Assembly (NCBI GenBank): GCA_033065855.1
Contig: JAVXUO010000663.1
Coordinates: 1 to 64,000, forward strand
DNA length: 64,000 nucleotides
Source: Escallonia rubra
Taxonomy: Eukaryota; Streptophyta; Magnoliopsida; Escalloniales; Escalloniaceae
Direction of reading: 5' to 3'
Shown: positions 37,061 to 41,200 of the stretch, piece by piece
Layout of the letters: each line of letters begins with the position of its first letter
How positions within the stretch are numbered: the first letter of the stretch is position 1
The notes under the pieces: model-generated
What the model saw: the letters and a program-made list of their open reading frames with translations, nothing else
What the model was told of the DNA's origin: nothing
The model's database searches: none
Made by a program: the position numbers and the translations under genes

Positions 37061-38239
37061 AGACTTACTAATATAGAGGTTAATTAATATTAAAATAAGG
37101 ATATGATGACGTGTCGTATAAAGAAGCAATGATGTGTCGCGTAAAGAAGTTATCAATGCCTTTTTCGCTTCGCTTATTATATATTATATAGATGCTAGGC
37201 ATCCTAAAGAATGTCACAAGTGCCAAAGATCTGAACTGCACGTCATGGACGATGTAGTGTTCAAGAAACAAGGTCCCCTACACCATGGTCGGCTTCAGAG
37301 TGCAAAGGACGGGGGCATGGAAGCAGCGCACTAAAGTAGCACAATGCCAATAAGGGTTGGTTCAACGGTCCCCAGGATCCCAATTTAGGTTTCCCACCTG
37401 GGTTCAAATCCTGCCCGCCGCACTTGTTGGTGGTAAACTTACGTCCTCGCCCTGCATGTGCTCCACACACGGGTCCTTGTGCGCTTCTACCCCGACATAG
37501 GTTTGGGAATCGGGGGCTCAGATGTATGTGGCGGCCTTGTAGGTCCCCGAGGCACAATATGTTACAAAATCGCTCTAGATAAATATGTACAGATAACGAT
37601 AACCAAACAAGAGAACACAAGAAAACTGAGAGAACTCAAATCCACTTTGCACAAGTCAGATTTACAACACTCCCTCACGTGTATCTCTCAATTGTTTTCC
37701 TACTCAAAGAAGGACACTTCTTTCTTGACCTTAAACACAATACAAGACACATTACTTATACTTAAAGATAAGTAGTGATCTTCTCTTTATAACCAATGTG
37801 GGACAAGATGTCTTTATATACTAAGGGCCAAGTTGCAACCTTCTTTGAATAACCAATGTGGGACATAAATACAAGGCCTATATCAACAATATAAACCTAG
37901 AAGCTCTGATACCACTTGTTACGAAATCGCTCTAGATAAATATGTACAGAACACGATAATCAAACAAGAGAACACAAGAAAACTGAGAGAACTCAAATCC
38001 ACTTGTGCAAAGTAGATTTGAGTTCTCTCAGTTTTCTTGTGTTCTCTTGTTTGGTTATTGTGTTCAATACATATTTATCTAGAGTGATTTCGTAACAAGT
38101 GGTATCAAGAGCGTTCCAGGTTTATTTTTGGGCAAAATTGAAATCGATTTTAGAAGATAAATATGTAGAACAACACGACCATGAAACATGCCTGTGACAA
38201 TTCGATGGGAAGAAAAAATTTGGCATATGACAGAGCACG

Positions 38240-40385
38240 ATGAAGGAATTGAGCGGTGCGATAGGGGATGCCAAAGCACACATGAGGAGCGAGCTCGAGG
38301 CACTTGGAGAGCACTTGCAGCAGACTGTCGCAAGTCAGGTGGAGCTAATATTCAATAGATTAGATGACTTGGAGGTAGACAGTCGATTAGCTGTGCTAGA
38401 ACGAAAAGTCGATGTGTTCGCGAAGGAGCTAGATGACTTGATCGAGGAGAGGATCGCCCATTTCACCAAGCGGGAGGTGCAACAGCGCAAGGACCTCAAG
38501 GGACAAGTCACGGAGCTCCAAGAAGAACTAGCTGCTTGTAAGAAGAAGTTCACAAAAGCTATGAGGCAGGGGTGTATCGCGGTGTAGTGCCAAGGCAAAA
38601 GAAAAATGTCAGAGCCGAGATCGTACGATGGAACGAGAGAGGCGAGGCAGGTGGATAACTTTTTTTGGTACTTGGAGCGGTACTTTGAAGCCCTCGACAT
38701 CGATGACGAGGAAAAGAAGGTGTAGCGGACTGTCGCAAGTCAGTTAGAGCTAATCTTTAATAGATTAGATGACTTGGAGGTAGACAGTCGATTAACTGTG
38801 CTGGAACAAAAAGTTGATGTGTTCGCAGAGGAGCTAGATGAGTTGATCGAGGAGAGGGTCGCCCATTTCACCAAGTGGGAGGTCCAACGGCACAAGGATC
38901 TCAAGGGACAAGTCACGGAGCTCCAAAAAGAACTAGCTGCTTGTAAGAAGGAGCTTACAAGAGGTATAAGGCATGGGTGTATCGCGGTGCAGCCAAGGCA
39001 AAAGTAAATGCCAGATCCGAGATCGTACGATGGAGCAAGAGAGGCGAGGCAGGTGGATAACTTCTTTTGGCAATTGGAGTGGTACTTTGAAACCCTTGAC
39101 ACCGACGACGACGAGGAAAAGGTGCATACATCGGTCATGTACCTTACGGATACAACTGCCTCATGGTGGAGGCGTCGCTATACGGATGGGTGCGACGTCA
39201 AAATGTGGGAGAAGTTCAAGTGAGAACTACAAAGGCAATTCTATCCACATAGCGTTGATGATAAACCTTCAACGACTGAGGCAGAAGGGAGCATCCACGA
39301 GTATGTGAAAGAGTACTTGGCTTTGATGTTCAAAATACTGGAGATGTCTGAGAGGCAGTGACTATGCTTCTTCATTGACGGGTTGCAGCAGTGGGTTGCC
39401 ACAACAGAGTTACGGCGAAGGGAACCTCACGACTTGGCTTTCGCCATGGTGATTGTCGAGAGGTTGGAAGACTTCAAGCAAGGTGAGAGGTCGAGATCTC
39501 CAAGGTACGAGCGTACCAAAAATGAGAGAGACGGTAGGTTGAAGAGTGGCTTACCCAATGCAACCGATTATGAGCGGAGTGAAGACAAGGTACGTCACCG
39601 CCATCATAAGGAGAAGAAGAAGCACGAGGGAAGTCGCAAGCAGGGTGACTCTTGTGACCATAAGGCTCATGTGGGGCCTAGAGGAGGATGCTTCTACTGT
39701 ACAGGTCCGCATTACCAGAAGGGATTACCCACACAAGGCCAAGATGATTGCGTTCCTCGAGAAGCACAAAGGCAGTAAATGGAACTTTTCCAACAACGAT
39801 GAGGAGGCACACATGGGGGCATTGCAGATGGTCAATGTGTACGTGCAAAAGTTGAAGGAAGAAATTGCCAAGAAGAAGAAGAGCAAGAAGAAACGAGGCT
39901 TGTTCTACGCAACGGTGGATGTTACCGGGAAGACTCAAGAAGCGCTTATGGATACCGGGGCCACCCACAACTTCATGAGTCTGAGGGTTACCGAGTGGCT
40001 TGGGCTAAAACCAACTAAGGACGGGAGTTGGTTCACGGCCGTGAATGCCGATGAACGACCGACGAAGGGAGTAGTCAAGAACGTTTATTTGAGGATCGAC
40101 AGATGGACAGGGAAAGCCAACTTCAACATCATCGACATGGATGAGCTTAGGGTGGTGCTTGGAATGGACTTCATGGAGAATTCGAGAACTACGCTCAATC
40201 CATATTGCGGGGTGATGATGATGGCGGGTAAAGAAGGCCAACCTGAGTGGATGATCCCGTTGATGTCCAAGGATGGGGCTGACGCACGTAAGGGGATTAC
40301 TGTGTTACAGCTGGACAAGGGATCGACGTTATGCTACGGTGAGCGAAAGATGAGGCCAATGACAGCGCAACTGATATGCTCATGA
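38240..40385 (+). pseudogene. Gypsy-type gag and protease region (fossil)
   Basis: Includes a Gln/Glu/Lys-rich predicted coiled coil that occurs twice in tandem, roughly 395 bp apart. A Ty3/gypsy-type gag segment follows (motif SWWRRRY), then a degenerate zinc knuckle and an aspartic protease with the active-site motif DTGATHNF and a downstream LGMDF. Polymerase domains are absent. The region is broken. Confidence 0.75.
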
Positions 40386-40734
40386 AGACAGTCGCGACAG
40401 TTAAGTTCAAGCATTGCTTGAGCTTGATTCATCTTTTTTTTTGCTGAGTTCAAGGTGGAGTGCATCCCTACCTTTAAAGAGGATGCAAGGTGGAGTACAT
40501 GAAGAAGGTACTGAAGGCATATTACACTTTCCTTATAGAGTGGTTTGTTAATACAAGCCAAGGTGGAGATTGTTGATATATGTCTTGTATTTATGTTCCA
40601 CATTGGTTATTCAAAGAAGGTTGCAACTTGGCCCTTAGTATATAAAGACATCTTGTCCCACATTGGTTATAAAGTGAAGATCACTGCTTATCTCTAAGTA
40701 TAAGTAATGTGTCTTGTATTGTGTTTCAGGTCAA

Positions 40735-41005
40735 GAAAGAAGAGTCCTTCTTTGAGTAGGCAAAAGGTCATGAAGAGAGAAGAGTCTTTCTTTGAGTAGG
40801 AAAACAAGAAAGAAGAGTCCTTCTCTGAGTAAGTAAACAAGAGAGAAGAGTCCTTCTTTGAGTAGGCAAATGTAAGAGAGGAGAGTCTTTCTTTGAGTAG
40901 GAAAGAAAGAAAGAAGAGTCCTTCTCTGAGTAGGCAAGCAAGAGAGGAGAGTCTTTCTTTGAGTAGGAAAGTAAGAGAGAAGAGTCATTCTTTGAGTAGG
41001 AGGGA
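40735..41005. repeat. Minisatellite inside the 3' LTR of the gypsy-type element
   Basis: About nine units of roughly 28-32 bp built on 'agaagagtccttctttgagt'. The matching part of the LTR at 37560-37888 has a single unit, which explains most of the length difference (546 against 329 bp). Confidence 0.85.
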
Positions 41006-41200
41006 GTATTGTAAATCTGACTTGTGCAAAGTAGATTTGAGTTCTCTCAGTTTTCTTGTGTTCTCTTGTTTGGTTATTGTGTTCAATACATATTTATCTA
41101 GAGTGATTTCGTAACACAATACTCCATGCCGGTTGGATTAGAGTCTTACGGTTCAGCTTTTTGAGTACAAAAAAAAAAAAAAAACTAAAGTAGCACAATG

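Follow-up and report, generated by a model that had tools for sequence, protein, structure and literature searches.

The window, i.e., the whole 64,000-nt stretch of Escallonia rubra DNA that was analyzed (contig JAVXUO010000663.1), carries an LTR retrotransposon composite at positions 37560-41116. Sequence reading and repeat analysis divide it into an antisense half A and a sense half B, joined head to head near position 38001. On both sides the outer terminus is the U5 (3') end of an LTR, with the same CA terminus. The outer inverted arms (37560-37676 and 41000-41116) are 92% complementary, and the central palindrome is formed by 98-nt arms (37907-38004 and 38010-38107, 94% complementary) separated by a 5-nt spacer. 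Two stretches resembling primer-binding sites (PBS), which we take to be of the TGGTATCAGAGC type, point outward from the center. The original prediction had described the mirrored LTR terminus, the partial LTRs meeting in a palindrome near 38001, and the two primer-binding regions facing away from it, and all three are seen here. The features of the locus are as follows.

37360..37559, + strand: 5' part of a SINE, ending in the target duplication (39 other places at 92-94% identity)
37555..37559: left copy of the target-site duplication CAATA (sequence, flank joining)
37560..37888, - strand: LTR_A, complete LTR of 329 bp, its U5 end being the outer terminus (repeat analysis)
37889..37916, - strand: remnant of half A, with 14 nt of leader (37889-37902), primer-binding region, and 2-nt spacer (sequence)
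37907..38107: central palindrome (repeat analysis)
37917..38004, - strand: inner R-U5 end of half A, 88 nt (repeat analysis, arm comparison)
38001..38004: ACTT microhomology where the polarity switches (joint measurement)
38001..38097, + strand: inner R-U5 end of half B, 97 nt, matching the LTR_B end without a difference (repeat analysis)
38098..38115, + strand: spacer and primer-binding region of half B, presumably of the initiator-Met tRNA type (sequence; motif from general knowledge)
38240..40385, + strand: internal region of half B, with gag-like frames and a retroviral aspartyl protease frame (frame list, domain search)
40560..40570, + strand: polypurine tract and spacer preceding LTR_B (sequence; motif from general knowledge)
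40571..41116, + strand: LTR_B, complete LTR of 546 bp with 33-bp tandem repeats, its U5 end being the outer terminus (repeat analysis; LTR_B queries began at 40573)
41117..41121: right copy of the target-site duplication CAATA (sequence, flank joining)
41117..41185, + strand: 3' part of the SINE and A-rich tail (sequence, flank joining)

The two complete LTRs (329 and 546 bp) are 95% identical over 194 nt and 83% identical over 178 nt. At least seven copies of the 33-bp repeat lie in LTR_B (40711-41010) and about one in LTR_A; across the family, LTR length tracks the number of these repeats. Nearly all of the internal region of half A is gone, and its 14 nt of leader abut the LTR start. The trinucleotide ATT, found by eye on both sides of this deletion joint, allows a plain template jump, and an integrase-made (autointegration) origin may also be considered, the LTR start at the joint being exact.

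Twenty-three open frames of at least 50 aa overlap positions 38000-40600, and four of them were searched for domains. One frame of half B matches aspartyl protease (gag-asp_proteas, 5.9e-10; RVP_2, 1.3e-8), and another gives a weak Ty3 capsid match below the cut-off (0.017); reverse transcriptase (RT) or integrase had no match in the four frames searched. An internal tandem duplication of about 405 bp (38316-38992; 272 nt at 90%) is also present in the relatives L005, L014, L016, and L017. The longer relative L052 has related LTRs, the first 108 nt of int1 (leader), and the last 213 nt of int3 (3' end), and the search of four of its six frames of at least 100 aa returned RVT_2 (4.5e-22), SH3_retrovirus, and Pol_BBD, which we take to be a Copia-type pol; the family thus has, in this longer member, what is presumably the coding content of Ty1/Copia-type elements. 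Half B appears to be a non-autonomous passenger of a Copia-type element. TR-GAG and LARD-type elements are non-autonomous plant LTR elements, and half B resembles them in its gag-like content and in the result of the RT and integrase search, but differs in having a protease and in belonging to a family with an RT-bearing copy. In the non-autonomous copies, the gag-like and protease region (RVP_2, weak Ty3 capsid) lies between a leader and a 3' end common with the RVT_2-bearing L052, and may be a gag-protease cargo of Gypsy type carried in a Copia shell.

Insertion into a SINE

The left flank was used for a SINE search that gave 568 first-look candidates; the best 40, including the window, were scored, leaving 39 others. 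In all 29 fetched SINE copies (29 of the 39 scored others), the joined flanks align without a break, and the separate matches of the two flanks share exactly 5 bp, which corroborates the earlier claim that CAATA flanks the whole structure and that the interrupted SINE is continuous across it. As read from the sequence, neither host DNA at the center of the composite nor any trace of a second duplication is found. A 5-bp duplication, TG...CA termini, a PBS, and a polypurine tract (the latter two motifs recognized from general knowledge) are those of an LTR retrotransposon insertion, but both outer ends are U5 instead of one U3 and one U5, and the LTRs are inverted instead of direct. Nested or neighboring insertions would have a duplication for each element, and none of this kind is seen. 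Each outer U5 end terminates at the CA of GTAACA, two bases before the PBS begins, which is what trimming by integrase should give; the ends of L051, L052, and the other composites are alike, one composite having GTAATA.

The presence of CAATA on both sides of the composite, together with the uninterrupted SINE, is strong evidence against both a pair of independent insertions and an artefact of assembly, and favors one unit that was inserted after the inverted form arose. Two independent insertions followed by a later deletion should have lost SINE sequence or left a second duplication; separate insertions with their own duplications, the reading that the original prediction had set against itself, are thus not supported.

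Direct-LTR and polarity-switched relatives

Relatives were sought through LTR and U5-PBS sequence, a biased route, so that locus counts are lower bounds and the clustering of joints in LTR and U5-PBS is not evidence by itself. The original prediction had called for a search of the genome for further mirrored copies and for a normal direct-LTR relative; direct-LTR relatives were found, and no second copy of the mirrored joint appeared in exact-match searches or among the best-scored candidates. An exact pattern of inverted GAACTCAAATC arms 4-34 nt apart matched the window site only, and a 251-bp query spanning the center matched across it at no other place among the 40 scored of 872 candidates. 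The 33-nt deletion joint of half A occurs nowhere else at up to 3 mismatches, and no match was obtained for diverging PBS at the inner spacing of 190-250 with exact anchors. Direct-LTR relatives lie at C2128:356019-358752 (duplication GATGT) and C3180:171434-176223 (TTAAT/TTACT, 4 of 5), with C1631, C328, and C866 as further cases by LTR arrangement. One U3 and one U5 outer end with direct LTRs are found in L051, L052, C1631, C328, and C866. At C1799 (L064:531-1200) the LTR end and its flank are tandemly duplicated on the same strand, and this locus was ruled out as a second case of paired U5 ends.

Polarity flips were found at five other family loci, which represent four zigzag structures and all have one U3 and one U5 outer end; their five-base duplications are exact in four cases and match at 4 of 5 positions in one. 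The LTR_B search, with 40 places scored, gave inverted neighbors at C311, C1736, and C2128. Two exact-anchor pattern searches, each with a control of 0, extended the set by C574, C1094, and C314: one looked for diverging PBS (three loci including the window) and the other for U5 ends lying tail to tail (three loci). C314 was ruled out as an independent insertion, since it is a second contig of the C311 locus, with 99.85% identity over 2699 bp that include the right flank; the two contigs (L065/L068 and L079/L081) part about 17 nt past the tail-to-tail joint, perhaps owing to an allele, a later rearrangement, or an assembly fault. The structures, mapped from matches of more than 60 nt (more than 30 nt in one mapping), are listed below.

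C311, 88213-95159: sense/antisense/sense, duplication CATTC
C1736, 427303-431043: zigzag common with C574, duplication CATAG
C574, 68974-71479: zigzag common with C1736, duplication ATATT
C2128 (C2128b), 466651-470514: inverted segment consisting of a 3' LTR and the internal-region end, duplication TAAGC/TAAGG, 4 of 5
C1094, 128486-131203 (130301-130749 unread): short inverted U5-PBS piece, duplication GCAAC

The zigzags of C1736 and C574 run from LTR, PBS, and leader into an inverted leader-PBS-U5-R, and then into R-U5-PBS and the internal region. Their joints are alike apart from single bases, their first joint occurs at just these two places at up to 3 mismatches, and the single pair of flanks compared has no similarity. 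Since one zigzag thus occupies two sites with different duplications, this polarity-switched element was apparently copied again. A palindrome, with a length of about 243 nt in L063, makes up its leader region, in spite of which the element seems to have replicated.

The original prediction also held that the inverted form predates integration and was inserted as one unit. The matching duplication, the continuity of the SINE in 29/29 copies, the common CA termini, the direct-LTR relatives, and the other polarity-switched members, each with its own duplication, all favor this account.

Parents, joints, and origin of the mirrored form

The R-U5 ends of the composite carry variants that bear on its parentage. 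The inner and outer ends of half B are identical (97/97 nt, and likewise over the 88-nt stretch), whereas those of half A differ at 4 of 88 sites, with three of the four differences private to one arm. Ends of A and B are separated by 6 to 8 differences over 88 nt, the inner arms differing at 6. A G present at both ends of half A is absent from all 27 other distinct 88-nt copies compared, a single private base being the two-parent evidence for this half, and both ends of half B have states found in 1, 2, and 3 of the 27. The copies compared were the 27 of 32 distinct sequences with the full 88 nt, a non-random sample from 50 fetched copies. Shared private variants within each half point to different parents, and hence most likely each half derives from its own parent and the palindrome joins two molecules. 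A self-foldback (hairpin) cDNA would have had identical arms at birth and is ruled out, since the arms bear different shared variants.

The halves meet via the 4-nt ACTT, which lies within the quasi-palindrome ACTTTGCACAAGT of the LTR. Six switches had their joint homology measured: 4 nt in the window, 3 at the second joint of C574, 0 and 7 at the first and second joints of C311, 13 at the second joint of C2128b, and 1 at the first joint of C1094. The second C311 value depends on the donor, being -5 with the LTR of its own locus and 7 only with the window LTR; the first C574 joint gave -2 (one base by eye), and the second joint of C1094 and the first of C2128b lie outside the six. Random opposite-strand joins in the joint zone reach at least 4 nt in 2.3% and at least 7 nt in 0.09% of cases.

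All seven inner U5-PBS arms at head-to-head joints (two each in the window, C1736/C574, and C311, and one in C1094) end within about 134 nt of the LTR end and are without U3, and none comes near the TATA box, which lies at position 69 of the 329-bp LTR. The head-to-head arms, containing R-U5 only, look as if they were copies of RNA 5' ends and early minus-strand DNA. Inner LTRs with U3 occur at the other kind of joint (first joint of C311, C2128b), where a 3' LTR end meets an inverted piece; U3 is present in the inverted piece of C2128b and the middle segment of C311, and some switches thus lie outside R-U5. The window joint is 97 nt from the LTR end, and the TATA box suggests a longer R-U5. 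An RNA 5' end exactly at ACTT, where C1736 leaves the minus strand, was considered and dropped, since the minus arm of C311 runs beyond this point and the TATA box is far upstream; the switch point is therefore not simply the RNA 5' end.

We consider it probable that the composite is a head-to-head dimer, generated by a strand-polarity switch in the reverse transcription of two co-packaged RNAs and then integrated by its two U5 ends. Two RNAs of a Copia-type LTR retrotransposon family would be reverse transcribed together, and both minus-strand cDNAs would extend beyond the primer-binding site and copy R-U5 at an RNA 5' end. One minus strand, at its growing 3' end, would then pair with the other through the self-complementary ACTT/AAGT, and synthesis would go on in the opposite polarity. 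This would yield a linear, double-stranded dimer, joined head to head and bearing a tRNA-primed U5 end on each side, and integrase would trim both ends to CA and insert it into the SINE with a normal 5-bp duplication. The placing of the switch within reverse transcription and the order of the steps are inferred. Weighing against this account is the uneven age signal of the ends (A 4/88, B 0/97).

The main rival, rather unlikely but possible at the window joint, is that two cDNAs were united by end joining. Integrase would have attached two separate complete cDNAs by their U5 ends to a single target, or two broken cDNAs would have been ligated first, and the inner ends would have been united by microhomology-mediated end joining with U3 trimmed from both. 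The 4-nt microhomology, the outer termini with their duplication, and the two parents fit this account equally, but both arms would need independent trimming to the same R-U5 place (within 5 nt). Moreover, two switches are required in the zigzag relatives, whose head-to-head arms have the same R-U5 limit; one polarity-switching polymerase explains all of these structures. We therefore favor a reverse transcriptase that moved to the opposite-sense strand at short inverted homologies as the presumptive agent of fusion.

A series of separate events is very improbable. An older antisense element at CAATA would have received B as a second insertion, followed by two deletions, one ending exactly at the LTR terminus. 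The age signal of the ends is uneven in the sense expected (A 4/88, B 0/97), and AACA, which terminates both LTR ends on the relevant strand, may have served as a 4-bp deletion site; however, three events with exact boundaries are required, the second duplication must have vanished without trace, and five relatives have polarity switches inside one duplication each. Least credible is a mirrored end made by a chimeric or fold-back read, for although the center is palindromic and contigs C311 and C314 agree over most of their structure and diverge past the tail-to-tail joint, a fold-back would mirror the flank too, while the flanks here are two halves of one SINE joined by the 5-bp duplication, and the arms appear to have two parents.

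If the polarity switch occurred during reverse transcription, then in our reading an odd number of switches yields two U5 ends, as in the window with its single switch, and an even number restores the U3 and U5 ends. Since the complete LTRs of the composite both face outwards and the inner copies are devoid of U3, transcripts from these LTRs would not span it, and it should be a replicative dead end.

Known systems and implications

Autointegration products of retroelements include inversion circles. Like the composite, autointegration products contain joins made inside retroelement DNA before integration, as far as the accessible text of the source goes (PMC2644782). In autointegration a processed LTR end attacks, and neither side of the window center is an LTR end. 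Template-switching complexes of LTR retrotransposons consist of two elements fused before integration, with a duplication and a common LTR, and are not inverted (Sabot and Schulman, 2007; PMC1950507). The composite resembles them in uniting two parent elements before integration within one 5-bp duplication. It does not have their third LTR common to the two elements, single orientation, and highly similar outer LTRs; its polarity is reversed, its inner LTRs are without U3, its outer ends are both U5, and its outer LTRs differ in length and sequence. Among HIV-1 proviruses, internal inversions form a defect class (n = 1 alone and n = 1 with deletion) in which, according to the accessible text, the inverted segments lie inside the integrated element, as in the zigzag relatives; that portion of the account does not describe the outer ends (PMC9278108). 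A further candidate precedent was set aside, its accessible part being about head-to-head DNA transposons (PMC12312487). Among the titles and abstract openings listed, with few subscription papers covered, no report of a mirrored U5/U5 insertion or its mechanism was recognized. The composite is a new form of template-switch complexes.

In vitro work leads one to expect integration via a pair of identical LTR ends, but it is hard to observe in nature; here the chromosome preserves both the product and its duplication. The family offers a natural series of strand switches with joints readable at single-base resolution, and in one case the switched form itself seems to have increased in copy number. 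Mirrored insertions would escape LTR annotation based on direct LTRs. On balance, we lean towards polarity switching as a recurrent route of evolution in this family, in which even numbers of switches would give zigzags able to replicate again (C574, C1736), odd numbers would give mirrored dimers integrating via two U5 ends, and the integrase acting on the family would accept a U5/U5 pair in nature.
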